NCBI GenBank assembly: GCA_947454355.1
Contig: CANGKR010000010.1
Location: 1 to 33,121 of the forward strand
Length of the DNA: 33,121 nt
Direction: 5' to 3'
Source of the DNA: Comamonadaceae bacterium
GTDB lineage: Bacteria > Pseudomonadota > Gammaproteobacteria > Burkholderiales > Burkholderiaceae_C
Below, piece by piece: positions 2,438 to 27,313 of the stretch (position 1 is the first letter of the stretch; each line of letters starts with the position of its first letter). A model generated the notes under the pieces. It was given only the letters and a program-made list of their open reading frames with translations, ran no database searches and was not told the DNA's origin. The translations under genes were made by a program, and so were the position numbers.

Positions 2438-2489
2438 CAAAGTGGGCGAGCTCCACTGGAACCCTTACCCTACAACCTAAGTTTTATTG

Positions 2490-2514: not shown

Positions 2515-2523
2515 ATGCATTGC

Positions 2524-3174: not shown

Positions 3175-3205
3175 GCAATTTCAGCTCACCTTTTTGAAAT
3201 TTCGC

Positions 3206-6399: not shown

Positions 6400-7374
6400 T
6401 CAGGCAGATTGCGGCATCAAAAACTCGCGGCTGATACGCCCGCCCAAGGTGTTGACGCGCTCCAGAAACTGAGTCAGGAACGCATGCAGTCCAGTGGCCA
6501 GGATTTCATCAATGCGGCCATAAGCCAACTCGGCGCGCAGCTTGCCGGCATGGCGCAAGGTCTCACTGCCCGTATCTGCAGCGACCAAATTGAGGTTGGA
6601 CACCACTTCATTCAAGCTCGCATGCAATGAGCGCGGCATGTCGGGCCGCAAAATCAGCAGCTCCGCAACCCGGTCTGGTCGAATCACATCGCGGTAGACC
6701 TTACGGTAGACCTCAAATCCGCTCACACTGCGCAAGATGGCGCTCCAATGGTAGAAGTCGTATTCTTGCTCGGCCTGGGCCACAGAGGGCGGCTCCATGG
6801 GCGTGAAGTCATCGCTGCCGACGGCGTGAAACTTAACGTCTACCAAACGGGCGGTGTTGTCAGCACGCTCTAAAAAAGTCCCCAAGCGCATGAAATGCAA
6901 GGACTCGTCCATCAACATAGTGCCCACTGTCACGCCGCGTGAAAGGTGTGATCGGAATTTGACCCATTCAAAAAATTTGCCCGGATCCCGCTCGAACTCA
7001 CCGCTGCGCATCATGCGGTTCACTTCCAGCCAGGTCTGGTTTTGGGTTTCCCACAGTTCGGTGGTGAGGGTTCCGCGAACAGCGCGGGCATTCTCACGAA
7101 CCGCACGCAAACACGACATGATGGACGAAGGGTTTTGCGTATCCTTGACCATGAAATCCATCACCCGGGCGGGCGTGACCTGACCATGCTTGGACAGATA
7201 AGCGGGGAGCAATTCGCTGATGGACAGCAGGCCTTCCCAACCGGCTTGGGCCGAGGCGGCCGATTGCGGCAAGAGCGAAGTCTCATAGCTCACATTGAGC
7301 ATGCGGGCGGTGTTTTCGGCCCGCTCGGTATAGCGGGACATCCAGAAAAGGTGGTCAGCGGTGCGGCTCAGCAT
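6400..7374 (-). CDS. Alpha-E domain protein (DUF403)
   Basis: A 324-residue, all-helical alpha-E protein, recognised by the opening MLSRTADHLFWMSRYTERAENTARML and by the Arg/Glu/Asp-rich helices that follow (FLERADNTARLVDVKFH near the middle, RPDMPRSLHASL later). Alpha-E proteins are found almost only beside circularly permuted ATP-grasp and transglutaminase-like genes and are thought to act with them in peptide bond formation or tagging; no biochemical role is established. It starts 31 bases after the stop of the ATP-grasp gene on the same strand, so the two are almost certainly one transcript. A second alpha-E domain is fused to an ATP-grasp at 14951-17539. Confidence 0.9.
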   Translation of the reverse strand: MLSRTADHLFWMSRYTERAENTARMLNVSYETSLLPQSAASAQAGWEGLLSISELLPAYLSKHGQVTPARVMDFMVKDTQNPSSIMSCLRAVRENARAVRGTLTTELWETQNQTWLEVNRMMRSGEFERDPGKFFEWVKFRSHLSRGVTVGTMLMDESLHFMRLGTFLERADNTARLVDVKFHAVGSDDFTPMEPPSVAQAEQEYDFYHWSAILRSVSGFEVYRKVYRDVIRPDRVAELLILRPDMPRSLHASLNEVVSNLNLVAADTGSETLRHAGKLRAELAYGRIDEILATGLHAFLTQFLERVNTLGGRISREFLMPQSA

Positions 7375-7405
7375 AGGGGTTCCATTCGGTTCGGTGTCCA
7401 GTCCT

Positions 7406-8857
7406 TCAGGCTTGCAAAATCCAGGTGTCTTTGGTGCCGCCGCCTTGGCTACTGTTGACCACCAAGGAGCCCTCTTTCAAGGCCACGCGGGTCAGACCGC
7501 CTGGCACCATTTGCACTGTGCGGCCGCTCAGCACAAAGGGCCGCAGATCAATGTGGCGCGGCGCAATTCCACTGTCCACAAAGGTCGGGCAGCTGGACAA
7601 ACTCAGGGTGGGCTGCGCGATGTAGCCCTCAGGGTTGGCCAGCAGTGCGCCGCGGAAGCGCTCGATTTCATCCTTGGTCGCAGCCGGGCCGACCAGCATG
7701 CCGTAGCCGCCTGCGCCATGCACTTCCTTGACCACCAGGTCTTTCAGATTGGCCAAGGTGTACTGCAAGTCATCGGGCTTGCGGCACTGAAATGTGGGCA
7801 CATTCTTAAGGATCGGCTCCTCGCCCAAGTAAAACTTGATCATGTCGGGCACATAGGGGTAGATTGACTTGTCGTCGGCCACGCCTGTGCCCACCGCGTT
7901 GCAGATCGCCACATGCCCCGCCTTGTAGGCCTCCATCAGGCCTGCGCAGCCCAGCGTCGAGGTGGGTCGGAACACATTCGGGTCCAAAAAGTCGTCGTCC
8001 ACACGGCGGTAGATCACGTCCACCCGCTTGGGGCCGCGCGTGGTGCGCATGTAGACAAACTTGTCTTTGACGAACAGATCTTGGCCTTCGACCAGTTCCA
8101 CACCCATTTGCTGCGCCAAAAAGGCGTGTTCAAAGTAGGCGCTGTTGTACATGCCGGGTGTGAGTACCACCACCGTCGGCTCGGCTGTGGTCGCAGGGCT
8201 GCTGGCACGCAAAGTTTCCAGCAACAGATCGGGGTAATGCGCCACCGGAGCCACGCGGTGCTGGCTGAAGAGGTCTGGAAAGAGCCGCATCATCATCTTG
8301 CGGTCTTCCAGCATGTAGCTCACACCACTGGGGACACGCAGGTTATCTTCGAGTACGTAGTACTCGCCGTTGCCAGCGCTGTCAGGGGCGCGCACGATGT
8401 CGATGCCGCTGATGTGCGAATAAATTTGGTTGGGCACGTCCACCCCCACCATCTCGGGACGGAACTGGGCATTGCCTTCGATTTGCTCGCGGGGGATGAT
8501 GCCCGCCTTCAGGATCTCTTGGTCGTGGTAAACGTCATGGATGAAGCGGTTGAGCGCAGTGACGCGCTGCACCAGACCGGCTTCCATATCGGACCATTCT
8601 TGCGCGGCGATCACGCGGGGGATCAGATCAAAAGGGATCAAACGCTCTGTTCCAGCGCCGTCTTCGTCCTTGTCGCCATAGACGGCAAAGGTGATGCCCA
8701 CGCGTCGAAAAATCATTTCAGCTTCTTCGCGTCGAGCGGCCATCACTTCGGCGCTTTGCTGAGAAAGCCACTGGGCATATGCCTGGTAATGCGCCCGGAC
8801 CGGACCGCCAACGCCCGCCTCGGGCAGTTGTTCATACATTTCGTCAAATTTGCGCAT
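7406..8857 (-). CDS. Circularly permuted ATP-grasp protein (DUF404/DUF407 type)
   Basis: A 483-residue protein of the circularly permuted ATP-grasp family (COG2308-like), predicted to use ATP to activate a carboxylate and form an amide or peptide bond. Typical blocks are VYGDKDEDG, ERLIPFDLIPRVI, VLEDNLRVPSGVSYMLEDR, TPGMYNSAYFEHAFLA, IYRRVDDDFLDP, KEVHGAGGYGM and RHIDLRPFVLSG. The acidic EDN and the DLRPF aspartate are both kept, so it is likely catalytically competent. The start at ATG 8857 is preferred over the GTG at 8875 because AGGAGA lies eight bases upstream and the family starts MRKFDEMYEQL. It lies 81 bases downstream of comEC and directly upstream of the alpha-E gene. The pair resembles a split version of the fusion at 14951. 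Confidence 0.9.
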   Translation of the reverse strand: MRKFDEMYEQLPEAGVGGPVRAHYQAYAQWLSQQSAEVMAARREEAEMIFRRVGITFAVYGDKDEDGAGTERLIPFDLIPRVIAAQEWSDMEAGLVQRVTALNRFIHDVYHDQEILKAGIIPREQIEGNAQFRPEMVGVDVPNQIYSHISGIDIVRAPDSAGNGEYYVLEDNLRVPSGVSYMLEDRKMMMRLFPDLFSQHRVAPVAHYPDLLLETLRASSPATTAEPTVVVLTPGMYNSAYFEHAFLAQQMGVELVEGQDLFVKDKFVYMRTTRGPKRVDVIYRRVDDDFLDPNVFRPTSTLGCAGLMEAYKAGHVAICNAVGTGVADDKSIYPYVPDMIKFYLGEEPILKNVPTFQCRKPDDLQYTLANLKDLVVKEVHGAGGYGMLVGPAATKDEIERFRGALLANPEGYIAQPTLSLSSCPTFVDSGIAPRHIDLRPFVLSGRTVQMVPGGLTRVALKEGSLVVNSSQGGGTKDTWILQA

Positions 8858-8865
8858 TGAACTTT

Positions 8866-8871
8866 TCTCCT
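8866..8871 (-). promoter_or_regulatory. Ribosome binding site deciding the ATP-grasp start
   Basis: AGGAGA on the minus strand lies eight bases before ATG 8857. It favours this start over the in-frame GTG at 8875. Confidence 0.7.
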
Positions 8872-8938
8872 GCACTGTGTTTTAGCAAGATGCGTACCCA
8901 ATCAGAACACATTCCGCCTCGGCTTCTCAGCGAGAACT

Positions 8939-11434
8939 TTAGGGTGCTTTGTGGTGCCAATAGCGATACAGGTCCCGCTCACAATGGACCTGGTCGGGCC
9001 GATCGCTGCGCCAATGCATCGCACCGCAATGCACCGAGTCCAGCAGCTGGATCTGTCGCTGGCGGTAGCGTTCCACCACAACAGAAGCGGGATGGCCGAA
9101 ACGATTACGGTAACCCGCTTGCACCCAAGCCCAGCGCGGGGCAACGGCATCGATGAAGCCATCGGTCGATGAGGTTTTGCTGCCGTGGTGCGGCACCAGC
9201 AGCACATCGGCTTTCAATGCGGGTGCAGCGCGTTGGAGCAAAGCCAGTTCCTGCGGAGCTTCGATGTCCCCTGTCAAAAGCACTGTTTGAGAGCCATTGC
9301 GGATGCGCAGTACACAACTGAGGGCGTTGCTGCGAGCGTGGGGCACATCATCGGTTGCTGCCGGATGCAAGACCTCAAACTGCACACCGTCCCAGGCCCA
9401 GCTTTGGCCGGCCGCGCAGCGCTGAGAGCCCGCAGCCGCCAAGTGCAACGGGTGCTCAGCCTCCAATGAACTCAGCAGGGGCAGATCGTTTTGCTGGGCC
9501 AGCAAGGCGGCTGCGCCGCCAGTGTGGTCGCTGTCGCGGTGACTCAACACCAAGAGGTCCAAGCGCTCATGCCATCGTCGCAGCCATGGCACGATCACCC
9601 GATGGCCCGCGTCGCTGTCGATCGAATAACGCGGTCCCGCGTCATACAACAGGCTGTGCCTGGCCGTGCGCACCCAGACCACATTGCCCTGCCCCACATC
9701 GGGGGCCCAGACCTCAAAATGCCCCATCATGGGGCGCGGCACCTGCCAACCCAGGGCCGGTACCAGCAAAGGAATGCCCAAACAACGCAGCCGCCAAGGC
9801 CAAGGCAGCGCCATCCACAAACCACCCGCCAAAGCCAGCAAGGCCACCCCCATTGGCGGTTGCGCCACTTGCAAGCTGGCACCTGGGACGGCTGCCAACC
9901 ACTGCAACAGTGCTTGCAAGGGCTGCAAGGCCCATACAGCCACTGTCCAAGCTCCAGACCACAATACGCCCAACATGGCCAAGGGCGTGACCACCAAGGT
10001 CACCCAAGGTATGGCCACCAAATTGGCCAATAAACCTACTACCGACATCTGACCAAAGAACAACACAGACAAAGGCGTGAGCGCCCAAGTCACCACCCAC
10101 TGCTCGCGCAGCAGACCCCAGAATCGCCTGAATCCTCCGCTTTGGTGCATACATTCCAACCATGGAGATCCCTTACCAGTAAAACGCACCAAAATAGGGG
10201 CATCACTCATCGGGACCGAGGTGGCCAACAACACCCCCACAGCGACAAAACTCAACCAAAAGCCAGGCTGGTACAAGGCCCAGGGGTCCCAAGTCACCAT
10301 AACGCCCAAAGCGAGCAACCATACCCAGGGCCAAGGCCACATCCGGCCCGTGGCACGCAACAGGCCCACGAGAGCCAGCATCCACACCGTGCGTTGGGCG
10401 GGCAAGCCCCAACCACTGAACAGTGCATAGGCCGTGGCCAACAGCACGCCGCCCACCCAAGCGGCCTGCGGCGCAGGCCAGAGGGCGCACCAGCGCCAAC
10501 CCCACAAGGCTGAGCGGCGCCAGACCGCACCAATGAATGCCGAAGCCAACCAAGCGAACAAAGTCACATGCAAGCCTGAGATGCTCATCAAATGCGCCAC
10601 ACCCGTGGCACGGAACACATCCCAATCGTTGCGCTCTATCGCGCTTTGATCGCCGGTCACCAAAGCGGCCACCACCCCACCCAAGGCGGCATAGTCGCCG
10701 GATGGACCGCCTGAAGAAAAGCGGTCCATGATCGCATCACGTACCGATTGACGGGCCCATTCCACAGGATGGCTATGGGTCTGACCTGTCCGCACAGGCA
10801 AGGGATCCTGGGCGCCCGTGCGCACATACCCAGTGGCTTGCAGGCCTTGCTCCCACAGCCATAATTCGTAATCAAAACCGCCCGGGTTCATATGGCCGTG
10901 CGCTGCTTTCAGGCGCACTCGCCATTGCCAGCGCTCGCCTGCCTGCAAGGGTGGCACCGCTCGAGGGGCTCCTTCCTGCCCCCAGGCCGAGCCGGCATAC
11001 CAAGATAAATACACCTCATGCGGCACCTGTACCTTGCGGCCCTCCAGTTGGGCCGACTCCACGGTAAATCGAAAGCGCAGACCCGATTCGCCGCGCTGGG
11101 GCATGGCCGAGACCACACCCACCACATCCAAACTGCGACCTTCCAGCTCAGGCGGCATGCGCTCTTGAAGGCGCAACTGGGCAAGTCCAGACACCATGGC
11201 AAAGGCCATCCCTGCCGCCCACAGGGCCCAGCCCACCCGCAACAGATACACAGACCAGGATCTTTTGCGCAGTGCGCACAAAACCCAAGCCATGCTCAAT
11301 AAGGCGGCAGTGAACCCGGCCCATGCGGGCACAGGCCAAAGTTCTTGCTGTTGCAATTGCAAGGCCGTGCCGACAATCCAGCCAGGCACGATCACGCGCC
11401 AGGCATGCAATGGGGTAAGGTGTGCATCACTCAT
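8939..11434 (-). CDS. comEC: DNA uptake channel protein ComEC/Rec2
   Basis: An 831-residue inner-membrane protein that carries single-stranded DNA into the cytoplasm during natural transformation. Order of domains: early membrane helices and a DUF4131-like region (about 40-210), the Competence channel domain (about 258-530, including GDQSAIERNDWDVFRATGVAHLMSISGLHV split around position 271), and a metallo-beta-lactamase domain (about 575-810). The last has DVGQGNVVWV, LLYDAGPRYS and the metal motif SHRDSDHTGG (631-640), and is thought to degrade the non-transported strand. Length is normal and no break is visible. AGGGAGAC lies close before the ATG. It is divergent from the transglutaminase operon (120-base gap) and upstream of the ATP-grasp and alpha-E genes. 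No other competence gene is in the window. Confidence 0.95.
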   Translation of the reverse strand: MSDAHLTPLHAWRVIVPGWIVGTALQLQQQELWPVPAWAGFTAALLSMAWVLCALRKRSWSVYLLRVGWALWAAGMAFAMVSGLAQLRLQERMPPELEGRSLDVVGVVSAMPQRGESGLRFRFTVESAQLEGRKVQVPHEVYLSWYAGSAWGQEGAPRAVPPLQAGERWQWRVRLKAAHGHMNPGGFDYELWLWEQGLQATGYVRTGAQDPLPVRTGQTHSHPVEWARQSVRDAIMDRFSSGGPSGDYAALGGVVAALVTGDQSAIERNDWDVFRATGVAHLMSISGLHVTLFAWLASAFIGAVWRRSALWGWRWCALWPAPQAAWVGGVLLATAYALFSGWGLPAQRTVWMLALVGLLRATGRMWPWPWVWLLALGVMVTWDPWALYQPGFWLSFVAVGVLLATSVPMSDAPILVRFTGKGSPWLECMHQSGGFRRFWGLLREQWVVTWALTPLSVLFFGQMSVVGLLANLVAIPWVTLVVTPLAMLGVLWSGAWTVAVWALQPLQALLQWLAAVPGASLQVAQPPMGVALLALAGGLWMALPWPWRLRCLGIPLLVPALGWQVPRPMMGHFEVWAPDVGQGNVVWVRTARHSLLYDAGPRYSIDSDAGHRVIVPWLRRWHERLDLLVLSHRDSDHTGGAAALLAQQNDLPLLSSLEAEHPLHLAAAGSQRCAAGQSWAWDGVQFEVLHPAATDDVPHARSNALSCVLRIRNGSQTVLLTGDIEAPQELALLQRAAPALKADVLLVPHHGSKTSSTDGFIDAVAPRWAWVQAGYRNRFGHPASVVVERYRQRQIQLLDSVHCGAMHWRSDRPDQVHCERDLYRYWHHKAP

Positions 11435-11554
11435 TTGTCTCCCTGATGATCGCGCTCTGGTGTTGGCGCGTCTTTTGCTTTGTTTTTAACTGCCAGTTTA
11501 GAGCGCCCAAGCTGCCCTGTCTAATGCAGCCTCTGTTGTGCCACCCGAGGTCCC

Positions 11555-14500
11555 ATGTCCATTCACGTCGCTCTGCATCACGTCACCCATTACCAATACG
11601 ACCGGCCCATCCAGTTGGGCCCGCAAGTGATCCGACTGCGCCCGGCGCCGCACAGCCGCAGCCGCATCCTGTCCTACAGTCTGACGGTGGAGCCGGGCGA
11701 GCACTTCATCAACTGGCAGCAAGACCCCTTTGCCAATTACCAGGCGCGCTTGGTTTTTCCGAAAAAAACCACCCAATTCAAAGTCACCGTGGATGTGGTC
11801 ACCGAGATGGCGGTGTTCAACCCGTTTGATTTTTTTCTGGAGCCTTCGGCCGAAGAAGTACCTTTCAAGTACAGCGCTGGCGTCAAAGAAGAATTGCAGT
11901 CTTATTTAGACAAAGACAGCAAAACCCCTTTGTTCAAAAAGTATCTGTCCACCCTTGACCGCCAGCGCCAACGCACCATCGATTTTTTGGTGAATATCAA
12001 CCAGCGATTGCACCAGGACATTCGTTACACCATTCGCATGGAGCCAGGGGTTCAAACCCCCGAAGAAACACTCGCGCTGAAAAGCGGCTCCTGCCGCGAC
12101 ACCGCCTGGCTGCTGGTGCAATTGTTTCGGCACATGAACATCGCCGCCCGATTTGTGTCGGGCTACCTGATCCAACTGGCCCCCGATGTGAAGTCGCTGG
12201 ACGGGCCCAGCGGCACTGAGGTGGATTTCACCGACCTGCATGCTTGGTGCGAGGTTTACTTGCCCGGCGCGGGCTGGATCGGCCTGGACCCGACCTCAGG
12301 CTTGCTTGCGGGCGAAGGTCATATTCCCTTGGCTTGCACGCCCCAACCGTCAGCGGCAGCGCCCATCGAAGGCTTGATGGACAAAGCCGAAGTCGAGTTT
12401 TCACACGAAATGAAGGTTACGCGCATCCACGAGTCCCCGCGTGTCACCAAGCCCTACACCGATGAACAGTGGGCGCAAGTCCTGGAGCTGGGTGAACAGG
12501 TCGATGCCCAATTGCAAGCGCAAGACGTGCGTTTGACCATGGGCGGAGAGCCCACCTTTGTCTCCATACAAAACCGTGACGCCCCCGAGTGGAACACCGA
12601 TGCTCTGGGCCCTACCAAACGCGGCCTGGCTACCGAGTTGGTTCACAAACTGCGAGCTGAATACGGGCAAGGCGGCTTTTTGCATTTTGGCCAAGGCAAG
12701 TGGTACCCCGGCGAGCAATTGCCACGATGGGCCTTGAATATTTACTGGCGTGCCGATGGGCAGCCCTGCTGGCAAGACCCTGCATTGTTTGCCGACGAAA
12801 GCGCACCTTCGCAATTACAAGCGGCCGATGCACGACGCTTCATGGACAGATTGTGCGGACATCTGGGCCTGCAGACTGACACCGTACTGGCCGGCCATGA
12901 AGACACCTGGTACTACCTCTGGCGTGAACGCAAATTACCGGTGAACGTCGACCCCTTTGATGCCCGCTTGGACGATGAACTGGAGCGCAATCGCTTGCGC
13001 CGGGTCTTCAGCCAAGGCCTGGCCCAAGAGATCGGTTATGTCCTGCCCTTGCAGACCACCGAATGCCAACAGGGCCAGACCGTTTGGCAAACCGGTCGCT
13101 GGTTTGTGCGCGATGAACGCATGTACCTCATCCCCGGCGACTCCCCCATGGGTTGGCGCTTACCGCTGGACTCACTGCCCTGGACAGCGCCAGGCGATCG
13201 GCAACACACCATCGAGCAAGACCCCTTTGCACCGCGCCAGGCTTTGACCGCTCCCATCATCACCGCGCAATCGCGCACGGGGCCAGCGCGGCCGCACACC
13301 GAGATCCCTACCAAACACAAGTCAGCTACCGACGTGGTGCGCACCGCTTTGTGCGTGGAAGTGCGTGACCCGCGCCGCGCCAACGGGGCCCAAGTAGAAG
13401 CACAGGCTTTGGCAGATGGCGATACGCGCGGCGTGCTGTATGTGTTCATGCCGCCCCTGGCCGATGTGCAGGACTATTTGAATTTGCTCGCTGCTGTGGA
13501 GGCCACGGCCCGTCAATTACAGATGCCCATCGTGCTCGAAGGCTACCCGCCTCCGCGCGACCCGCGCCTGCGGCTCTTGCAGGTCACCCCCGACCCGGGC
13601 GTGATTGAAGTGAACATCCATCCCGCTCACCACTGGCATGAGCTGGTAGCGCACACCGAATTCTTGTACCAAGCCGCTTTCGAGACCCGGTTATCGGCTG
13701 AAAAGTTCATGACCGATGGCCGCCACACTGGCACGGGTGGTGGCAATCACCTGGTCATGGGCGGGGCCACGCCCGCAGACAGTCCTTTCCTGCGTCGGCC
13801 TGAACTTTTGGCCAGTTTGCTGCTGTATTGGCACAACCATCCGTCCTTGAGTTATTTGTTCAGCGGCATGTTCATTGGCCCGACCAGCCAAGCGCCTCGT
13901 GTCGATGAAGCGCGTAACGATCAGGTGTACGAGCTGGAAATCGCCTTGCAAGAAATCATGCGCAATCGGATCGAATATGGTCAGGACATGCCGCCATGGT
14001 TGGTGGACCGCACCTTACGCAATATTCTGGTAGACGTGACTGGGAACACGCACCGCAGTGAGTTTTGCATCGACAAAATGTATTCGCCCGACTCCAGTAC
14101 GGGGCGCTTGGGCCTGCTGGAATTGCGCGCTTTTGAAATGCCACCGCATGCCCGCATGAGTATCGTGCAGCAGTTGCTGTTGCGTGCCTTGGTGGCTCGG
14201 TTCTGGGACACCCCCTACACTGCGCCCGTCACCCGTTGGGGTACCGAGTTGCATGACCGTTTCTTGCTGCCCACCTTTGTGCGGATGGACTTTGACGATG
14301 TTCTCACAGAGTTGGGCGACGCCGGCTTCCATTTCGATCCAGGTTGGTTTGCGCCACACTTTGAGTTCCGCTTTCCGCTGGTGGGTCAGATCACTTCGGA
14401 TGCGGTGCAAGTGACTTTGCGCAACGCTCTGGAGCCCTGGCACGTGATGGGCGAAGAAGGATCAGCTGGCGGCACAGTCCGTTATGTCGATTCCTCACTA

Positions 14501-14929
14501 GAGCGTCTGGAGGTGCATGTCACCGGCCTGAACCCAAGCCGTTACAGCGTCACCGTGAATGGTCGCCCCCTGCCCTTGCAGCCCACGGGTACCGTGGGCG
14601 AATACGTGTCCAGCGTACGCTACAAGGCATGGAATCCGCCTTCTGCACTGCACCCCTCCATTGGTGTGCATGCGCCTCTGACCTTGGACGTGGTGGACAC
14701 CTGGATGAAGCGCTCCTTGGGTGGTTGCCAGTACCATGTGGCCCACCCCGGCGGGCGCAACTATGACACCCTGCCAGTCAATGCCTACGAAGCCGAGAGC
14801 CGCCGACTGGCGCGCTTCTTCCGCATGGGCCACACACCCGGCCCTCTGGCGGTGCGCTCGCCCAACATCGGTCTGGCGGCCAGTGCGGAGTTTCCTTTCA
14901 CATTGGATTTGCGCCGGCAAACCCTTTGA
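11555..14929 (+). CDS. Large transglutaminase-like protein with DUF2126 region
   Basis: A 1124-residue protein. Residues 1-90 match the bacterial transglutaminase N-terminal domain (MSIHVALHHVTHYQYDRPI). The papain-like transglutaminase core follows with C180 in SGSCRDTAW, H229 in DLHAWCEVY and D245 in GLDPTSG, a complete catalytic triad. The long remainder (about 320-1115) is the DUF2126 region, with WNTDALGPTKRGLA, GGGNHLVMGGATPADSPFLR and LLELRAFEMPPHARMS. The core probably makes or breaks amide bonds to glutamine or isopeptide linkages; the DUF2126 function is unknown. GAGG stands six bases before ATG 11555. It begins an operon: the ATP-grasp/alpha-E fusion starts 22 bases after its stop. 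The family usually occurs with these partners, supporting a shared peptide-modifying pathway. Confidence 0.93.
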   Translation: MSIHVALHHVTHYQYDRPIQLGPQVIRLRPAPHSRSRILSYSLTVEPGEHFINWQQDPFANYQARLVFPKKTTQFKVTVDVVTEMAVFNPFDFFLEPSAEEVPFKYSAGVKEELQSYLDKDSKTPLFKKYLSTLDRQRQRTIDFLVNINQRLHQDIRYTIRMEPGVQTPEETLALKSGSCRDTAWLLVQLFRHMNIAARFVSGYLIQLAPDVKSLDGPSGTEVDFTDLHAWCEVYLPGAGWIGLDPTSGLLAGEGHIPLACTPQPSAAAPIEGLMDKAEVEFSHEMKVTRIHESPRVTKPYTDEQWAQVLELGEQVDAQLQAQDVRLTMGGEPTFVSIQNRDAPEWNTDALGPTKRGLATELVHKLRAEYGQGGFLHFGQGKWYPGEQLPRWALNIYWRADGQPCWQDPALFADESAPSQLQAADARRFMDRLCGHLGLQTDTVLAGHEDTWYYLWRERKLPVNVDPFDARLDDELERNRLRRVFSQGLAQEIGYVLPLQTTECQQGQTVWQTGRWFVRDERMYLIPGDSPMGWRLPLDSLPWTAPGDRQHTIEQDPFAPRQALTAPIITAQSRTGPARPHTEIPTKHKSATDVVRTALCVEVRDPRRANGAQVEAQALADGDTRGVLYVFMPPLADVQDYLNLLAAVEATARQLQMPIVLEGYPPPRDPRLRLLQVTPDPGVIEVNIHPAHHWHELVAHTEFLYQAAFETRLSAEKFMTDGRHTGTGGGNHLVMGGATPADSPFLRRPELLASLLLYWHNHPSLSYLFSGMFIGPTSQAPRVDEARNDQVYELEIALQEIMRNRIEYGQDMPPWLVDRTLRNILVDVTGNTHRSEFCIDKMYSPDSSTGRLGLLELRAFEMPPHARMSIVQQLLLRALVARFWDTPYTAPVTRWGTELHDRFLLPTFVRMDFDDVLTELGDAGFHFDPGWFAPHFEFRFPLVGQITSDAVQVTLRNALEPWHVMGEEGSAGGTVRYVDSSLERLEVHVTGLNPSRYSVTVNGRPLPLQPTGTVGEYVSSVRYKAWNPPSALHPSIGVHAPLTLDVVDTWMKRSLGGCQYHVAHPGGRNYDTLPVNAYEAESRRLARFFRMGHTPGPLAVRSPNIGLAASAEFPFTLDLRRQTL

Positions 14930-14950
14930 TGCGGTGACAATAGAGACACT

Positions 14951-17539
14951 TTGGAACCGAATCAAGACTTGCCCATCCCAGCGCCGCGCACACCTTTTGC
15001 ACAAGCCCAAACCGCCCCCGCTGGGCATTGGGACGAATTGCAAGGGGGCGTGCCTGCGGCCGCTGGCACGCCGTCCTTCAGCCCCTTAAGCGCCGCTTGG
15101 TCGGACTTCATGCAGCATCTGCCCGATGTGAGTCCAGCCGCTTTGAATGCCCGCAGGGCTCAGCTGGAGCGGCAGGTCCACGACAACGGCATTTCATACA
15201 ACGTGTATGCCGATGCAGATCGTCCCCAGCGCCCCTGGTCTCTCGACCTGTTCCCCTTGATGGTGGACACCCTGAGTTGGCAGCAAATCGCCACCGGGGT
15301 GCTCCAGCGCATGCGCTTGCTCGAACACATCATGGCTGACACCTATGGCCCTCAAAAGCTGCTACGGGGCGGTCAATTGCCAGCTGCGCTGGTGCAAGGA
15401 CATCCGGGGTATTTGCACGCCATGCAAGGGGTGCCGCCCGTGGGCGGGCAGTACCTCAGTTTGGCGGCTTTTGACCTCGCCCGAGGACCCGATGGCTGCT
15501 GGTGGTTGCTTTCGCAAAGGATGCAAGCGCCTTCAGGCCTGGGCTATTTGCTGGAAAACAGGCAACTGGTGTCCAGGCAATTTCCGCAAGCCTTTGAAGC
15601 CATGCCGGTGCAGCGCTTGGCCGATGTGTACCGCCAATGGATCGATGGCATCAAGCAACGCTCGCCAGCAGGCGCGGATGCACACATCGCCCTGCTCACC
15701 CCGGGGCCCTACAACGAAACCTATTTCGAGCACGCTTACCTCGCCCGTTACTTGGGCTTGACGCTGGTGCAGGGATCGGACTTGACGGTGCGCGACTCGC
15801 GCGTTTTTCTCAAGACCTTGCAAGGACTGCAACCGGTGCACGGTTTGATCAAGCGGGTGGACGATGTGTGGCTGGACCCTTTGGAGTTGCTTGCCGAGTC
15901 GACCTTGGGCGTACCTGGCTTGTTGCAAGCTGTGCGCAGCGGCAATGTGCTGGTGGCCAATGCGCCCGGCTCGGGTTTTCTGGAGAGCAACGCGCTGCTG
16001 GGCTTCATGCCGTCGCTGGCGCAATCGCTGCTCGGTGAAACCTTGCACCTACCCGCTATCCCCAGCTGGTGGTGCGGCGAGCAAGCCGCGATGCAAGATG
16101 TGTTGCCGCGCTTGAGTGAATGCGTGATCAAGCCCACCTACCCTGCATTTTCTGGACGCAGCAACTTCGAGCCAGTCATCGGCGCAAACCTGTCACAGCG
16201 AGAGCGCGACGAATGGTCCGGCCGCATCATGCGGGATGGGCAAGCCCACACTGTGCAAGCATTTTTACCTTTGTCTCACACCCCCACATGGCAAAGCAGT
16301 GAAGGCAGCGGCCAGGTCAGCTCGCGTCCCTTGATCTTGCGAGTCTTTGCCCTGGCCGATGCGCAAGGCGGTTGGCAAGTCCTGCCCGGCGGTCTGGCTC
16401 GCTTGGGCACGCGCGAAGGCATCGCCTCGATGCAGCGCGGCGGTGGCAGTGCCGATGTGTGGGTCTTGGGCCCGGCAGCATCACTGTCGCCAAAATCGCC
16501 CACCCCAGCCACCCAATTGCCGCTGATGGCGCCCCTGGTGGCCAGCCAAGTGCAGCGCCAAAGGCTGGCCACCAGCCGCGCGGCCGAAAACTTGTTCTGG
16601 ATGGGTCGCTACACCGAGCGCTGTGAAAACACCCTGCGCCTGTCGCGCCTGACGCTGGATGTTCTGGGCAGTGAAGACCAAACCTGCGGCCCCTTGGTGG
16701 ACTGGCTCAATCGACTGGCCCTGAGCCAGGGCCTGGTGGCGCCTGGCGTTCCTGCGGCCTTGCAATCGCGCAGGGTGTTCGAGCGCACGCTGGTGGCCGG
16801 CTTGTGGGATACGCAAGTGACAACCGGTGTGGGCTACAACCTCAAGGCCATCCATCTGGCCGCGGCCAATGTGCGTGAGCGTCTTTCACCCGAACACTGG
16901 CGCTTGATCGAGCAGGCTCAAACCGCGTTTTTCCATGCGTCCCCGAAAGCACCCCATGACGCCATCCAGGCGCAGAGGGTGTTAGCGCAAACCAGTCAAT
17001 TGCTGGCCGCCATGACCGGCGCCCAAACCGACCGCATGACCCGCGACGACGGCTGGCGCTTGATGTCGATTGGCCGTCACATCGAGCGACTGGATTTCTT
17101 GTCGCTCGCCATGCAAATGGCCTTGCAAGGTGAGACCCTGCAAACGCAAGCTGGCTTTGATGGTGTGCTGGCCCTGTTTGACAGCACCATCAGTTTCCAT
17201 GCGTTGTACCAGCAAAGTCGAACCGTCAGTGCCCTGCTGGAATTGATCATCGTCAACACAGATAACCCCCGTTCCCTGGCCTGGGTGGCCAACACCTTGC
17301 GCGGACGATTGGCGCGTATGGGCCACTTAGCCGAAGGTCGTACCGAAGAACTGTCGCATCACATTCCCCGCTTGATAGGCAGGGATGTAAACGAACTGTG
17401 TCCCGATGGGCTGCGCACCACAACCGCATTGACCGATCTGCTGTTCGAGTGCCGCCAAGCAGCTCGCCAAACATCAGACCAGTTGAATACCTTGTTTTTC
17501 AGCCACAGCGTTCTGGCAGGCCAGGTTGTGAGTGCGTGA
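14951..17539 (+). CDS. Circularly permuted ATP-grasp / alpha-E fusion protein
   Basis: An 862-residue two-part protein. Residues about 25-515 are a circularly permuted ATP-grasp (HWDEL, ISYNVYADADRPQRPW, APSGLGYLLENR, TPGPYNETYFEHAYLA, LIKRVDDVWLDP). Residues about 538-855 are alpha-E (SRAAENLFWMGRYTERCENT, later DNPRSLAWVANTLRGR). It joins in one chain what the minus-strand genes at 7406-8857 and 6400-7374 make separately. In the ATP-grasp half, the EDN of the free-standing copy reads SQR and the DLRPF aspartate reads ILRVF, so its ATP or metal binding may differ. The start is a TTG at 14951 with only a weak AGAGA before it. The next internal ATG lies beyond the conserved HWDEL block, so TTG is likely right. 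It overlaps the next gene by one base (TGATG). Confidence 0.9.
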   Translation: MEPNQDLPIPAPRTPFAQAQTAPAGHWDELQGGVPAAAGTPSFSPLSAAWSDFMQHLPDVSPAALNARRAQLERQVHDNGISYNVYADADRPQRPWSLDLFPLMVDTLSWQQIATGVLQRMRLLEHIMADTYGPQKLLRGGQLPAALVQGHPGYLHAMQGVPPVGGQYLSLAAFDLARGPDGCWWLLSQRMQAPSGLGYLLENRQLVSRQFPQAFEAMPVQRLADVYRQWIDGIKQRSPAGADAHIALLTPGPYNETYFEHAYLARYLGLTLVQGSDLTVRDSRVFLKTLQGLQPVHGLIKRVDDVWLDPLELLAESTLGVPGLLQAVRSGNVLVANAPGSGFLESNALLGFMPSLAQSLLGETLHLPAIPSWWCGEQAAMQDVLPRLSECVIKPTYPAFSGRSNFEPVIGANLSQRERDEWSGRIMRDGQAHTVQAFLPLSHTPTWQSSEGSGQVSSRPLILRVFALADAQGGWQVLPGGLARLGTREGIASMQRGGGSADVWVLGPAASLSPKSPTPATQLPLMAPLVASQVQRQRLATSRAAENLFWMGRYTERCENTLRLSRLTLDVLGSEDQTCGPLVDWLNRLALSQGLVAPGVPAALQSRRVFERTLVAGLWDTQVTTGVGYNLKAIHLAAANVRERLSPEHWRLIEQAQTAFFHASPKAPHDAIQAQRVLAQTSQLLAAMTGAQTDRMTRDDGWRLMSIGRHIERLDFLSLAMQMALQGETLQTQAGFDGVLALFDSTISFHALYQQSRTVSALLELIIVNTDNPRSLAWVANTLRGRLARMGHLAEGRTEELSHHIPRLIGRDVNELCPDGLRTTTALTDLLFECRQAARQTSDQLNTLFFSHSVLAGQVVSA

Positions 17540-18462
17540 TGCCCCTACCCGCCCGCACTTTGCGCATCACCCACACCACGCGCTACGACTACAGCGCTCC
17601 GGTGGACATGGCCCAGCATGTGGCGCATTTACAGCCACCCCATACACCTTGCCAAACCTGCCATCAACACCATTTGCTGATTGACCCAGAGGGGGCGCAG
17701 GTGAGTTCGAGCCTGGATGCCTTTGGTAACCACCGCGTCTACTTTGCCTTGCCGATGGTGCATGCCCAATTGCATGTGCAAGCCCAAAGTATCGTCACCA
17801 CTCGCCAGCTCAGCCAAGCCAGCAGCATCCTGAGTTGGGAAGAAGCCCGCGCAGCCTTGACTTACCCCTCCAGCGTGTCTCGCCATCCTGCCGCTGAATT
17901 TGTCGTGGCTTCACACCATGCACCCATGGACGAAGTCTTCGCCACCTATGCGCGCCCCAGCTTCACACCGGGTAAGTCTTTGGTGCAGGCGGCAACTGCT
18001 TTGACGCAGCGCATGCACCGTGATTTCACTTACGCATCACAAAGCACCGACATCAGCACGCCTGCTGCCCAGGCCCTAGCGCAGCGGCGTGGTGTGTGCC
18101 AAGACTTTGCCCACATCCTGATCGCCTGCCTGCGCAGCATGGGCTTGGCAGCGCGCTATGTCAGCGGCTATCTGCTGACCGAGCCACCACCGGGCCAGCC
18201 ACGCTTGATCGGCTCGGATGCCTCTCACGCCTGGGCGTCGGTTTGGGTGCCCGATGTGGCCAGCGCAGACCATGCCAGTGGCGGCTGGCTGGACCTGGAC
18301 CCCACCAACGACCGCTGCGGCTGGGCCAGCCCAGGTACAGACTATCTGCGTTTGGCCATTGGCCGCGATTTTGCTGATGTGTCCCCCTTGCGCGGGGTCT
18401 TACTTGGTGGGGCTTCTCATACCCTGGACGTTGGCGTTACAGTGGAGCCCTTTGAACTGTAA
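17539..18462 (+). CDS. Transglutaminase family protein
   Basis: A 307-residue transglutaminase-like protein. The N-terminal beta domain (RTLRITHTTRYDYSAPV) is followed by the papain-like core with C187 in RRGVCQDFAH, H230 in ASHAWASVW and D254 in WLDLDPTND, so the triad is intact. It lacks the DUF2126 extension of its larger neighbour. ATG 17539 overlaps the stop of the fusion gene as TGATG, which implies translational coupling and comparable amounts of both proteins; the frame is open back to 17398, but that part only shadows the fusion gene. No signal peptide is seen, so it is cytoplasmic. Likely a protease-like or amide-exchanging partner of the ATP-grasp protein. The substrate is unknown. 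Confidence 0.92.
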   Translation: MPLPARTLRITHTTRYDYSAPVDMAQHVAHLQPPHTPCQTCHQHHLLIDPEGAQVSSSLDAFGNHRVYFALPMVHAQLHVQAQSIVTTRQLSQASSILSWEEARAALTYPSSVSRHPAAEFVVASHHAPMDEVFATYARPSFTPGKSLVQAATALTQRMHRDFTYASQSTDISTPAAQALAQRRGVCQDFAHILIACLRSMGLAARYVSGYLLTEPPPGQPRLIGSDASHAWASVWVPDVASADHASGGWLDLDPTNDRCGWASPGTDYLRLAIGRDFADVSPLRGVLLGGASHTLDVGVTVEPFEL

Positions 18463-18486: not shown

Positions 18487-18942
18487 ATGAACATCTATGA
18501 CCGCCTGACGGCACTGAACATCTCCCTGCCCCCTGTGTCCACACCAGCTGCCGCTTATGTGCCTTTTGTACGCACGGGTCAATTGGTTTTTTTGAGCGGT
18601 CACATTGCCCGAAAAGATGGCAAAGTGTGGGTCGGCCAACTGGGTCTGAACATGACCACCGAAGAAGCCAAATTGGCTGCACGCGCTGTGGCCATCGACC
18701 TCTTGGGCACCCTGCATGCGGCGGTGGGCGACCTCAACAAAGTCCAACGCATCGTCAAAGTGATGAGTTTGGTCAACTCGGCCAGCACCTTCACCGAGCA
18801 ACACCTGGTGACCAACGGCTGCAGCGAACTGATTGGCGATATTTTTGGTGACAAAGGCGCCCACGCCCGCAGCGCCTTTGGCGTGGCACAACTGCCCATG
18901 GGCAGCTGTGTGGAAATCGAATTGATCGCCGAAGTGGCTTGA
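18487..18942 (+). CDS. RidA (YjgF/YER057c/UK114) family protein
   Basis: A 151-residue protein of the longer RidA-like subgroup. It shows the usual start (YVPFVRTGQLVFLSGHI), the central LGTLHAAVGDLNKVQRIVKV, and the end HARSAFGVAQLPMGSCVEIE. R128 is the arginine that in RidA enzymes holds the imine or enamine substrate, and E143 lies at the conserved acidic position. RidA members hydrolyse reactive 2-aminoacrylate-type intermediates, but members of this subgroup are less well studied, so deaminase activity is inferred. It starts 24 bases after the small transglutaminase gene on the same strand, and could be read through from that operon. The ribosome binding site is weak. Confidence 0.88.
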   Translation: MNIYDRLTALNISLPPVSTPAAAYVPFVRTGQLVFLSGHIARKDGKVWVGQLGLNMTTEEAKLAARAVAIDLLGTLHAAVGDLNKVQRIVKVMSLVNSASTFTEQHLVTNGCSELIGDIFGDKGAHARSAFGVAQLPMGSCVEIELIAEVA

Positions 18943-18979
18943 ACCCAAGCCAAACACTTTTTTAACTGAGGAATTTCCC

Positions 18980-19495
18980 ATGACCATTTCCATGTCCAGT
19001 GCTTCCCTGCCCGTGTGCACCCGCATGCTCACCAACCTGAGTCACATCCTGAGCAAGGCAGAGCAATTCGTGGACGCCAAAAAAATCGATCCTGCAGCGC
19101 TGACCTCTTACCGCTTGTCCCCCGACATGCTGCCCTTCACACGACAGATCCTGATCGCCTGCGATGCGGTCAAGAACGGCGTAGCGCGTTTAAGTGGCGT
19201 CGAAGCGCCAAAATTTGAAGACACCGAAACCACCCTGGGGGAACTGAAAGAGCGGATCCAAAAAACCCTGGACTTCATCGCCACCGTGCCTGCGGCCACC
19301 TTGGACGGCACCGAAGACAAAGAGATCACCTTTCCTGCCGGTCCGGGAAAAACCCGAACCCTGAGAGGCCAGGACTACCTGAACGGCTGGATGATGCCCA
19401 ACATGTATTTCCACATCACCACAGCCTATGCGATCTTGCGCCACAACGGTGTTGAAGTGGGCAAGATCGATTACCTGCTGGGCGCGCAGGGCTAA
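18980..19495 (+). CDS. DUF1993 family protein
   Basis: A 171-residue protein matching DUF1993, a DinB-like helical family of unknown function. Supporting blocks are the opening SLPVCTRMLTNLSHILSKAEQF, the central LSPDMLPFTRQILIACDAVK, and the closing MPNMYFHITTAYAILRHNGVEVGKIDYLLG, each partly quoted here. Size is typical. GAGGAA lies shortly before ATG 18980. The gap to the RidA-like gene is 37 bases, so these two probably share a transcript. It ends six bases from the convergent tannase-like gene, leaving no room for a normal terminator. No signal peptide is present. Confidence 0.85.
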   Translation: MTISMSSASLPVCTRMLTNLSHILSKAEQFVDAKKIDPAALTSYRLSPDMLPFTRQILIACDAVKNGVARLSGVEAPKFEDTETTLGELKERIQKTLDFIATVPAATLDGTEDKEITFPAGPGKTRTLRGQDYLNGWMMPNMYFHITTAYAILRHNGVEVGKIDYLLGAQG

Positions 19496-19501: not shown

Positions 19502-21091
19502 TCAGCGGCAACTGAAGTTGCTGGCATTTTCTGTGTCGCCTGTGCCTTTGTAATGCGCATGCTGGGGATAGGCACACAGAGGCCTTGAACGGCCGGGAAA
19601 GACCGCCGTACCATTGGCCACCAAGCTTTGCGGGGCTTGACCTTTCTCTACCCAATCGACCAAAGCGCCCAAACCATCGATGCTGTCGGTGGCTGCACCG
19701 CCTGCGCAGTGGCCCATGCCAGGTACCAAAAACAGTTTTGCAAAGTCTTCAGTGCGGGCACCGTTGTGGGCCCTCAGGCGCTGGTAATAGTCGATCATTT
19801 CATGTGGCGAGAAAATCGGATCGGCCAACCCATGGATGAACATCAGCTTGCCGCTGCGAGCCTGAAAGCCTTTGAGCTGCACATCCTCTGCGGTGTTGAA
19901 AATCCAAGCGTGCGCGTCCATACGCAGGGGATCTCGGTCAAAGTTGAATTGGTAGATGCTCAAGCTGCGATCAGGCGGCGTGACAAAGTAGCCTTGCAGC
20001 GCGTCTTCCATCAAAAACACATGGCGCGAATTGGCTTTCTCGGTAGCAGAGTTGCCCAGTTTCCACATACGCCAATCGTTGGCCGGATGCCCCATGCCAG
20101 GATCCCAGGGCCATGAGAAATACAAGGGCTGGCCGCTGGAAGTTTTCGCTCCACCGAACATTTTTTTCAATGCATCCACTTGCCCAGGGGCTAAACACGC
20201 ATCGGTTTTGGCGCCTGTGCATTGCAAAGTGCTCACATCGAAACTGCATGCGGCGGGGTTCGACACCACGCCATCGGTCACGCCATCCAAGGCATCACAT
20301 TGGCTCAAAATGCTTTGACGCACCAGCCCCAGGTCTTTCTCGCTCAAGGCTTGACTGAGCACTGGTTTACCGTTTGCGCCCGTGGGTGCGATGGCTTGCA
20401 AGGCCTGGGTATCCCAAGCCGCGGCGATGGTCGCACCTTTGGACACCCGCATGGCAGGGGCCATGGCGATCACTCCGTCAAAGTAGGATGGGAAACGTTG
20501 GGTGAACATCATCCCCTGGCGACCTCCACCAGAGCATCCGATGAAATAGGCGCGGTCTGCAGGTTTGCTGTAGTAGCGCTGCACCAGTTCTTTGGCGGTG
20601 ACAGCGACTTTGTCGTGCGCGTTATAGGCATTGTCGGTGCGGGCGATTGGATCGAAGCCGAAATCTGCCGTGGGCCCTTGGTGCCCTGCATCGGTGGTGA
20701 CCACGGCAAAGCCGCGATTAAGGGCATAGCCCGGTGCTGCTTGAGGCCCCACGGCTGGGCGCACCACGCCATCGTTGCCCCCGCCGCCTTGGTAGAGGAG
20801 CCTGCCATTCCAAGCGGTAGGCAAACGCATTTCAAAACCAATGTGATAGGCCTTGCCATCTTGCCCCATGCGCTCTTGCATGCGTCCAGTGAGCTTGCAG
20901 TGGGCGATCAACATCGGGCCGGCATTCATGCCTGGGGGGCGCTGCGTGTCACCCGCAATCCATTCGGTTTGCAAGCTCATGCCATGGGGCGCGGCTTGCG
21001 CGAAGGCAGCGCAATCAGATGTTTGGGCCCCAGCGGTCTGGCAGGCCGCCCACAACAAGCCCAGACCCACACTGAATTTAAATTGACTCAT
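19502..21091 (-). CDS. Secreted tannase/feruloyl esterase family protein
   Basis: A 529-residue esterase of the tannase family, which cleaves esters of gallic, ferulic or similar aromatic acids. It has a signal peptide (KFSVGLGLLWAACQTAGA, cleavage before QTSDC). The family's CS-D-HC arrangement is complete: C186-S187 in FIGCSGGGRQG, D424 in HGLADPIFS, and H461-C462 in VPGMGHCAGG, where the two cysteines bridge serine and histidine. A CDALDGVTDGVVSNP segment matches the calcium-binding lid region. AGGAG precedes the ATG. The second enzyme of the same family lies directly upstream (start of this gene 12 bases after that stop), so the two form an operon. The actual substrate cannot be read from sequence. 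Confidence 0.9.
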   Translation of the reverse strand: MSQFKFSVGLGLLWAACQTAGAQTSDCAAFAQAAPHGMSLQTEWIAGDTQRPPGMNAGPMLIAHCKLTGRMQERMGQDGKAYHIGFEMRLPTAWNGRLLYQGGGGNDGVVRPAVGPQAAPGYALNRGFAVVTTDAGHQGPTADFGFDPIARTDNAYNAHDKVAVTAKELVQRYYSKPADRAYFIGCSGGGRQGMMFTQRFPSYFDGVIAMAPAMRVSKGATIAAAWDTQALQAIAPTGANGKPVLSQALSEKDLGLVRQSILSQCDALDGVTDGVVSNPAACSFDVSTLQCTGAKTDACLAPGQVDALKKMFGGAKTSSGQPLYFSWPWDPGMGHPANDWRMWKLGNSATEKANSRHVFLMEDALQGYFVTPPDRSLSIYQFNFDRDPLRMDAHAWIFNTAEDVQLKGFQARSGKLMFIHGLADPIFSPHEMIDYYQRLRAHNGARTEDFAKLFLVPGMGHCAGGAATDSIDGLGALVDWVEKGQAPQSLVANGTAVFPGRSRPLCAYPQHAHYKGTGDTENASNFSCR

Positions 21092-21103
21092 GCTAGTCTC
21101 CTT

Positions 21104-27293: not shown

Positions 27294-27313
27294 GGATTCG
27301 TTCCGATGCGGCT

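Follow-up and report, generated by a model that had tools for sequence, protein, structure and literature searches.

A two-module ATP-grasp, alpha-E and transglutaminase cluster with nitrogen-type promoter elements and an apparently inactive ligase paralogue

Results

We read the gene cluster described here, with moderate confidence, as a two-module peptide ligation/cleavage system of the alpha-E/CP ATP-grasp/transglutaminase/Anbu kind that would act under nitrogen limitation. The core module would comprise one active-type split ATP-grasp ligase and an alpha-E partner, and the accessory module a transglutaminase-DUF2126 protein, an ATP-grasp/alpha-E fusion and a second transglutaminase-like protein (TG2). 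Systems of this kind are already known, having been proposed by Iyer et al. 2009 (as related in PMC6376114 and PMC5666114); what the present sequences add is an apparently dead ligase within the cluster and nitrogen-type promoter elements ahead of it.

Layout of the locus

The cluster lies in a window of 33,121 nucleotides, the whole stretch of DNA that was analysed, with the following features:

6400..7374, minus strand: stand-alone alpha-E protein, 324 aa (Pfam PF04168, E 9.8e-97)
7406..8857, minus strand: split CP ATP-grasp ligase, active-type (PF14403, CP_ATPgrasp_2/_1, E 1.1e-165); longest ORF from 8875
8884..8899, minus strand: sigma-54-like element GGGTACGCATCTTGCT, its first base 42 bases ahead of the ATP-grasp ATG; differs from the consensus at two positions
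8939..11434, minus strand: comEC/rec2 (TIGR00361, 329.8 bits)
11464..11479, plus strand: sigma-54-type element TGGCGCGTCTTTTGCT, its first base 91 bases ahead of the DUF2126 ATG
11555..14929, plus strand: 1124-aa protein joining a transglutaminase-like domain to DUF2126 (PF08379, Bact_transglu_N; PF01841, Transglut_core; PF09899, DUF2126, 1339 bits)
14951..17539, plus strand: ATP-grasp/alpha-E fusion, 862 aa (PF14403, PF04174, PF04168)
17539..18462, plus strand: TG2 (PF08379, PF01841), start codon overlapping the fusion stop (TGATG)
18487-18942, plus strand: Rid-family protein (Pfam PF14588/PF01042)
18980-19495, plus strand: DUF1993 protein (Pfam PF09351)

The earlier note had described five proteins around comEC, a split pair on the minus strand and a three-gene set on the plus strand, and very strong Pfam matches bear out both positions and families. 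The split ATP-grasp and alpha-E genes are adjacent, 31 bases apart. Judged from the sequence, the most likely start codons are the ATG at 8857 for the split ATP-grasp and, for TG2, the ATG at 17539 in the TGATG overlap rather than 17398. A role in phage defence was considered and rejected, with no PADLOC match to any of the five proteins. The source bacterium is a relative of Limnohabitans.

The two modules occur together across genomes

Every genome carrying DUF2126 also carried alpha-E (66/66 in a family sample of 100 genomes and 39/39 in a phylum sample of 120, counts that are uncorrected for shared ancestry). The fused form tracks DUF2126 in turn: in the phylum sample 34 genomes hold both, 5 DUF2126 only, 2 the fusion only and 79 neither, so that the fusion is present in 34/39 DUF2126 genomes versus 2/81 others. 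At the level of gene order, the fusion lies at most 3 kb behind DUF2126 in 68 of the 72 related loci that are long enough (8 further loci end too early), and TG2 also follows the two in 67/72; because so many loci repeat the order, the DUF2126-fusion-TG2 arrangement is not a product of chance. The system is also widespread, with alpha-E in 69/120 phylum-sample genomes.

A survey of co-occurrence had been proposed in the earlier note, which held that the five proteins form one ligase/cleavage pathway. No random distribution of the halves was seen: DUF2126 falls within alpha-E genomes, the fusion tracks DUF2126, and Anbu tracks alpha-E. Co-occurrence thus upholds the part of that claim by which the proteins belong together; the part that assigned them two ligases fared otherwise, as described below.

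The same counts bear on whether the window instead holds two separate neighbouring systems, the split pair with Anbu and the DUF2126/fusion/TG2 set, with nothing but nitrogen control in common. The core does occur without DUF2126, in 20/86 alpha-E genomes of the family sample and 30/69 of the phylum sample, and in the present layout each module has a promoter element of its own. Against such a division, no DUF2126 genome lacks alpha-E, and the split gene or genes stand 5' of DUF2126 in a single co-directional run in 14 loci. In 5 others they are divergent from it without comEC, and in two loci (L005 and L009) a single divergent control region, which holds tandem NtrC-like sites, serves both modules. 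We therefore consider two independent systems unlikely and retain a single two-module system as the favoured reading.

Among 49 loci with one or both split genes, comEC lies between the halves in 27; L040 and L081 also have it, 5' of the split ATP-grasp and on that gene's strand. It was not found beside the split genes in the other 20/49, some of which end at contig ends, and is therefore probably a neighbour and not a component of the system. We accordingly set comEC aside as a functional partner, although its adjacency is kept in part of the order.

The fused ATP-grasp has apparently lost its active site

The split ATP-grasp matches the solved structure 3n6x, a putative glutathionylspermidine synthase that represents the split type, with 711 bits over residues 8-488. 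To compare the two forms we used proteins of at least 75% of the window protein's length and a set of 12 candidate metal/ATP residues, picked after the residue loss in the fusion had been noticed. The set is complete in 37/38 split ATP-grasp rows; in the remaining row, L059, the first 8 residues are present and the last four are gapped. Its members include E176, N178, D443 and N474, which we presume to be catalytic from ATP-grasp motifs.

The fusions present a different picture. Among 74 from Burkholderiales, E176, N178, H441, D443, N474 and K482 (split numbering) are retained in none, the glycine-rich loop is mostly lost, and no protein has more than 4 of the 12 residues. Among 20 fusions from other Pseudomonadota (20 of the 36 fused-form phylum-sample genomes, none from the window's family, with frames chosen by BLAST), E176, N178, D443 and N474 are again retained in 0/20. 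D159 persists in 74/74 and K383 in 48/74, together with fold residues that include G184, R291, D293, D294, D298 and R445, and the fusion's ATP-grasp still matches 3n6x with 250 bits, without the lost residues. By sequence, then, the fused ATP-grasp is apparently a catalytically dead pseudo-enzyme. Its divergence is wide and extends beyond the active site; 94 of the split form's 213 conserved columns are kept in fewer than 20% of fusions, and 54 in none.

The earlier note had assigned "two ligases for different steps", and two active ATP-grasps, split and fused, serving different steps of one peptide synthesis would indeed fit the strong CP_ATPgrasp_2 matches in both proteins. An altered yet working site in the fusion is conceivable given the residues that it retains, and its divergence affects many columns outside the presumed active site as well. 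Set against this, the six residues are gone in 74/74 fusions along with most of the glycine-rich loop, the count within the 12-residue set (chosen after the fact) never exceeds 4, and the wider fusions repeat the loss. Because the fused ATP-grasp has lost its presumed catalytic residues, the two-ligase claim is unsupported, and we regard two active ATP-grasps as very unlikely. The note had also stated that its proposal would fail if most orthologs lacked the catalytic residues; such loss appears in the fused ATP-grasp and not in the split one, with residue roles presumed from motifs.

All the aligned fusions (74 plus 20) lack these residues, yet the protein tracks DUF2126, which suggests a pseudo-enzyme partnership. 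Conservation of a dead paralogue implies a structural or regulatory role. For purification, the target would probably be one ATP-grasp ligase plus its dead paralogue.

The alpha-E partner of the split ligase carries two ER motifs, RYTERAENTAR and FLERADNTARLVDVK, whose residues are invariant. Its AlphaFold model is wholly helical (pLDDT 88.7), and Foldseek comparison of the model with PDB folds gave no match at E<=0.001. A known fold for alpha-E was accordingly rejected: the best E was 0.13, and TM was at most 0.36 among the best 50 of 304 matches.

Conserved cysteine triads and a putative second ligase

In the transglutaminase-DUF2126 protein, Cys180, His229 and Asp245, which by motif we presume to form the catalytic triad, are invariant in 81/81 sequences, and the Cys, His and Asp of TG2 are invariant in 70/70. 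The recovered genome (85% complete) encodes two Bact_transglu_N proteins, both in the window and none elsewhere.

With the fused ATP-grasp apparently dead, any second ligase would have to be DUF2126, whose putative amidoligase identity is an unconfirmed Pfam label. Aligned to GCS2 with hhalign, the DUF2126 profile gave E 0.29, which is no better than four unrelated control alignments drawn from the cluster (best E 0.15 to 0.5). With profiles as shallow as these two (Neff 2.4 and 3.4), the result does not disprove the label. The DUF2126 structural model is weak (pLDDT 67.2), with no PDB match at E<=0.001; the sub-threshold matches include beta-sandwich proteins, among them superoxide dismutase and antibodies.

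Anbu is encoded elsewhere in the genome

The earlier note had found no Anbu gene in the window and had advised a search of the genome. Its absence holds for the window; in the genome, the search located Anbu on contig C84 beside mutS, its start 18 bases behind that gene. The protein matches 5loy, a solved designed Anbu, with 306 bits, and the catalytic Thr1, Asp17 and Lys32 are present here and in 20/20 family loci. Anbu tracks alpha-E in 80/81 genomes of the family sample and 42/43 of the phylum sample. It was not detected in 5/66 DUF2126-positive family-sample genomes, and among the 23 phylum-sample genomes holding both, it lies less than 900 bases from the DUF2126 match in 11.

The window's genome thus resembles the system of Iyer et al. 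2009 in its protein families and in having Anbu, but differs in that Anbu is detached beside mutS, comEC sits between the modules, and the genome, at 85% completeness, has only two Bact_transglu_N proteins. All parts are present here, although not as a four-gene operon that includes Anbu. No sigma-54-type element was found in the 300 bases upstream of this lineage's Anbu (0/20). Because of this, and because the gene starts so close behind mutS, Anbu may not be co-induced with the cluster.

Sigma-54-type elements precede both modules

The TGGCGCGTCTTTTGCT element is the best of the 200 listed among 224 sigma-54-type matches in the window. A perfect TGGCRC-N5-TTGCW stands 5' of DUF2126 in 32/80 loci, where 0.1 would be expected, and occurs elsewhere at 21 sites in 3.3 million positions; the block is conserved in the alignment. 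Outside the Comamonadaceae sample the element is rare: a perfect one precedes DUF2126 in 1/29 (that one from the same family) and one with at most one mismatch in 3/29, against shuffle means of 0.01 and 0.22; three of these 29 starts are unsure.

For the split ATP-grasp, upstream regions came from matches of more than 55% identity starting near the start codon (46 loci plus the window). GG-N8-TTGC occurs within 300 bases in 45/47 of them (shuffle mean 4.6, maximum 10; opposite strand 16/47), and at -48..-39 in 32/47 (shuffle mean 0.17, maximum 2). Both transcription units thus have -24/-12 elements at the right place for sigma-54 use. The split pair's element is weaker than that of DUF2126.

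NtrC-like sites were found 5' of the split pair in 11/47 regions, against 0.4 expected. The scan 5' of DUF2126 covered regions with a sigma-54 site of at most one mismatch (43/81, being 42 loci and the window). Sites with at most one mismatch appeared in 7/43 versus 7.1 in shuffles, and perfect sites in 2/43 versus 0.4 (maximum 4); both of these regions, from L005 and L009, carry a tandem pair. In the window itself, no NtrC-type site with at most one mismatch was found up to 300 bases from the start of the split ATP-grasp or up to 250 bases from the DUF2126 element; six one-mismatch sites fall inside comEC, a number not compared with chance. No palindrome of some other activator was visible in the alignment of the Limnohabitans-like group, which shows the promoter element and, downstream of it, a further block.

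The genome encodes rpoN and an ntrC match above cut-off. Since both units have sigma-54-type elements and relatives have NtrC-like sites, nitrogen limitation probably turns the system on; we further infer that the promoters are used and that NtrC is the activator in this genome. Nitrogen limitation, perhaps via sigma-54, is therefore when to seek the product.

Nitrogen control in related clusters

Two published clusters resemble this one. B. cenocepacia I35_5080-5083 encodes DUF404/407, DUF403, a transglutaminase and a large transglutaminase protein, and the NtrC/sigma-54 regulon reported there includes the DUF404/407 and DUF403 proteins together with two transglutaminase proteins, all of them lowered 6.0- to 9.4-fold by an ntrC mutation (PMC5491218). 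P. putida PP_2685-2688 encodes Anbu, a transglutaminase, a type-2 CP ATP-grasp (PP_2688) and a further hypothetical protein. By the column order of Table 1 in PMC7801951, PP_2686-2688 are 11 to 15-fold up in the nitrogen-limited wild type, and are assigned there to NtrB/NtrC, but are also 14 to 20-fold up in a nitrogen-limited rpoN mutant; for PP_2685 (Anbu) the values across the three strains are only 1.1-, 4.8- and 1.5-fold. Induction in the rpoN mutant disfavours a strict need for sigma-54 in P. putida and lowers our confidence in the favoured reading. Expression of PP_2685 and PP_2688 is higher with nitrate than with ammonium, and the PP_2685 promoter is described as nitrogen-agnostic in a reporter (PMC8050072). 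In both clusters nitrogen control is known from expression, whereas here it is read from promoter-like elements alone. A word search of the main texts of M. smegmatis and Azoarcus nitrogen transcriptomes, and of Acidovorax citrulli ntrC and P. stutzeri NtrC studies, found none of the cluster genes.

Nitrogen control would also suit a scavenging breakdown pathway, in which Anbu and the transglutaminase-like proteins would work as amidases or peptidases that free nitrogen from peptides, and the ATP-grasps only activate or re-ligate small fragments. The sigma-54 and NtrC-like elements and the conserved cysteine triads are compatible with it, as is a co-variation with domains of urea metabolism that is reported for marine metagenomes (PMC3597751). 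An ATP-consuming ligase whose active site is fully conserved would, however, be an odd core for pure degradation, and we hold this reading to be quite unlikely.

A proposed mechanism

Returning to ligation and cleavage by two modules, the split ATP-grasp would form an acyl-phosphate and couple it to an amine, while the fusion, as a dead paralogue, would serve the active pair as a scaffold, hold its substrate or regulate it. Cutting or transfer of the amide would fall to the Ntn-hydrolase Anbu and the two transglutaminase-like domains with cysteine triads, and DUF2126 may contribute a second ligation. The direction of the reaction, its product and the role of the pseudo-ligase are likewise conjectural, and the literature searched establishes no substrate. 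For relatives, ATP-grasp of Y. bercovieri is reported to free phosphate from ATP, and for Anbu the same source reports no detected peptidase activity and no specific binding to other operon proteins (PMC6376114).

The fullest form of such a scheme would be a Gram-negative counterpart of Pup tagging: under nitrogen starvation the active ATP-grasp/alpha-E pair, which its dead paralogue holds or gates, attaches a small peptide tag, DUF2126 serves as a second, possibly glutamine-synthetase-like ligase, the transglutaminases edit, and Anbu consumes the tagged material so that amino acids are recycled. The Pup-proteasome system of actinobacteria unites a proteasome-like peptidase, a ligase and nitrogen starvation, and the likeness lies in these three elements; we think the full analogy improbable.

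Downstream, the Rid and DUF1993 genes possibly belong to the same transcript as TG2 and are candidate members of the system only; a Rid gene follows closely behind TG2 on the same strand in 27/80 loci.

A conserved cluster with a core and an accessory module

The genome that holds this window (contig C10 of a 2.69 Mb assembly in 222 contigs, estimated completeness ~85%) comes from a Limnohabitans-like member of the Comamonadaceae, since its transglutaminase-DUF2126 protein finds its best matches, at 83–84% identity, in a Comamonadaceae metagenome-assembled genome and in Limnohabitans genomes. The gene cluster itself is a real, conserved and previously proposed system; what we add is an apparently dead paralogue, a hierarchy of modules, an Anbu gene in trans, and promoter evidence. 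Its genes lie on both strands:

11434–8939, minus strand: comEC, first in transcription order
8857–7406, minus strand: circularly permuted ATP-grasp, split form, second in transcription order, after comEC
7374–6400, minus strand: stand-alone alpha-E, third in transcription order
11555–14929, plus strand: transglutaminase-DUF2126
14951–17539, plus strand: ATP-grasp/alpha-E fusion
17539–18462, plus strand: second transglutaminase (TG2)

Because only 21 bases separate DUF2126 from the fusion, and the fusion stop overlaps the TG2 start (TGATG), these three genes very likely form a single transcript.

We compared gene order in the best 80 of at least 590 confirmed Burkholderiales relatives. The fusion lies no more than 3 kb behind DUF2126 in 68 of the 72 loci with room (8 further loci end too early), and TG2 is also present behind the two in 67 of the 72. 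One or both split genes share the locus with DUF2126 in 49/80, with comEC between in 27, co-directionally upstream in 14, divergently without comEC in 5, and downstream in 3. comEC also precedes the split ATP-grasp gene on the same strand in loci L040 and L081, and is thus a recurrent companion of that gene (29/49). We nonetheless read it as a neighbor rather than a component, because it was not found beside the split gene in the remaining 20/49 loci and because a promoter-like element lies between them. In two rearranged Limnohabitans loci, L005 and L009, the modules have no intervening comEC, DUF2126 and the mutS-linked Anbu gene converge, and fusion and TG2 lie beyond the split pair.

Co-occurrence was surveyed in 100 genomes from the family (86 with alpha-E, 81 with Anbu and 66 with DUF2126) and 120 from the phylum (69, 43 and 39, respectively). 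DUF2126 never occurs without alpha-E in either sample (0/66 and 0/39), and Anbu does so once in each (1/81 and 1/43). Two or more alpha-E genes are present in 63/66 DUF2126 genomes of the family sample versus 6/34 others. The fused form, which we sorted ourselves by an alpha-E match below 240 bits in a frame of ~800 residues or more, is present in 34/39 DUF2126 genomes of the phylum sample versus 2/81 others. Fisher p-values for these pairs (3e-8 to 3e-22) and for Anbu with DUF2126 (1e-4 and 5e-4) ignore shared ancestry and therefore overstate the associations. Taken together, the picture is of a core of ATP-grasp and alpha-E, often with Anbu, on which an accessory module of DUF2126, fusion and transglutaminase would depend. 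Gene order and co-occurrence thus bear out the earlier note's proposal that the five proteins belong together.

Beyond TG2 come a Rid-family and a DUF1993 protein (18487–19495); Rid closely follows TG2 on the same strand in 27/80 loci. Further along are two tandem tannase/feruloyl-esterase family genes (19502–22822, minus strand) and a gyrA/gyrB-family (topoisomerase IV-like) pair with a four-base overlap (24933–29359).

The fused ATP-grasp is apparently dead

We aligned 38 split and 74 fused ATP-grasp sequences, window included, numbering residues from the longest split ORF. Throughout the 38, the split enzyme carries an invariant LEDN-x-R...PSG stretch together with a glycine-rich loop, KE-x-x-G-x-GG-Y-G; H441, D443, N474 and K482 are also invariant, save for gaps in one row (L059). 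E176, N178, H441, D443, N474 and K482 are each kept in 0/74 fusions, while D159 is retained in 74/74 and K383 in 48/74. For a 12-residue set, picked after the loss in the fusion had been seen, no fusion (n = 74) keeps more than four, versus all 12 in 37/38 split rows. E176, N178, D443 and N474 are likewise absent from all 20 fusions outside the window's family (30–39% identical to the window's). The E-x-N pair, which binds metal in glutathionylspermidine synthetase, is a candidate metal site here. On these residues, the two ATP-grasp ligases acting at different steps, as first proposed, are probably wrong, and the fusion appears to be a dead paralogue.

Divergence is broad: of the 213 columns that the split enzyme conserves, 94 are retained by <20% of fusions, 54 by no fusion, and 59 by ≥90%. 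Because many fold residues stay invariant, the fused domain is probably maintained for some role other than catalysis. The Pfam note on alpha-E already mentions inactive ATP-grasp domains alongside active ones; what is new here is the residue counts, not the idea. Available literature text on DUF2126, COG4196, COG2307, COG2308 and "inactive ATP-grasp" contained nothing on this point.

In the alpha-E half of the fusion, E169 and R170 remain while the second ER motif (residues 171–181) is mostly lost. Two similar ER motifs suggest that alpha-E arose by internal duplication. The predicted model of stand-alone alpha-E (6400–7374) is confident and all-helical (pLDDT 88.7), and Foldseek returned no PDB match at E ≤ 0.001. 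The presumed Cys/His/Asp triad is invariant in the transglutaminase-like domain of the DUF2126 protein (81/81) and in TG2 (70/70); these domains may be hydrolases or transferases. DUF2126 gave a weak predicted model without structural match, and its profile matched GCS2 no better than unrelated controls did, leaving its "amidoligase" label unconfirmed.

Anbu is encoded in trans

The earlier note's statement that no Anbu gene is present holds for the window but not for the genome, which has one on contig C84. The 275-residue protein matches a solved designed Anbu at 306 bits and carries Thr1, Asp17 and Lys32, the catalytic residues of Anbu in the available text of PMC6376114. The same text reports phosphate release by the ATP-grasp of the Anbu operon and no detected peptidase activity of Anbu; hypotheses on the operon appear there and in the text available of PMC5666114.

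The gene starts 18 bases past mutS, and mutS lies inside the 1.5 kb flank of Anbu in 16/20 best family loci, its own counted. This placement of a 275-residue Anbu near mutS (1501–2325 of locus L084) is a stable Comamonadaceae arrangement, distinct from the ~245-residue Anbu matches adjoining alpha-E in, for example, genomes G002 and G048. Although absent in the source genome, physical linkage of Anbu and DUF2126 recurs: the two directly adjoin in L005 and L009, and lie <900 bases apart in 11/23 phylum-sample genomes with both.

Promoter-like elements point to probable nitrogen control

A sigma-54-type element, TGGCGCG-N4-TTGCT, has its first base 91 before the DUF2126 start. Perfect TGGCRC-N5-TTGCW sites starting 29–150 bases upstream of DUF2126 occur in 32 of the best 80 of at least 590 loci, versus 0.1 expected, given only 21 other perfect sites per 3.3 million positions. 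Two counts weigh against such control: the element is essentially a Comamonadaceae feature (perfect in 1/29 phylum-sample loci), and solitary Anbu lacks it (0/20 loci).

Upstream of the split ATP-grasp gene, GG-N8-TTGC occurs in 45/47 regions (shuffle mean 4.6, maximum 10; opposite strand 16/47) and at −48 to −39 in 32/47 (shuffle mean 0.17, maximum 2). In the window, the copy departs from the full consensus at two positions. Perfect GCAC-N7-GTGC, which we take to be the NtrC-like consensus, precedes the split gene in 11/47 regions versus 0.4 in shuffles, none of whose 200 rounds gave more than 3. All these shuffles preserve nothing but base composition, and the loci compared in this section are related and hence not independent. 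The two promoter elements of L005 and L009 point apart, and tandem perfect NtrC-like sites fill the space that separates them. In the window, no such site was found near either element, which also weighs against such control. The source genome has both rpoN and an above-cut-off ntrC. The cluster's neighbors at 2434–4978 are a hybrid histidine kinase and a response regulator; the latter has a LuxR-type (GerE) domain and no match to a sigma-54 activator domain.

As far as the available text of the following papers goes, nitrogen control is partly in print already, given reports from B. cenocepacia, P. putida and further work. The homologous B. cenocepacia cluster is under NtrC and sigma-54 control (PMC5491218). 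P. putida PP_2685 and PP_2688 transcripts are nitrogen-induced, with a nitrogen-responsive PP_2688 promoter and a nitrogen-agnostic PP_2685 promoter (PMC8050072). Induction of PP_2686–2688 reaches 11 to 15-fold in the wild type, an rpoN mutant still shows 14 to 20-fold, and the values for PP_2685 are only 1.1 and 1.5-fold (PMC7801951); this fits nitrogen control rather than a strict sigma-54 need. Predicted sigma-54 targets include the proteasome-type protease COG3484 (PMC12316311), and the system co-varies with urea domains (PMC3597751).
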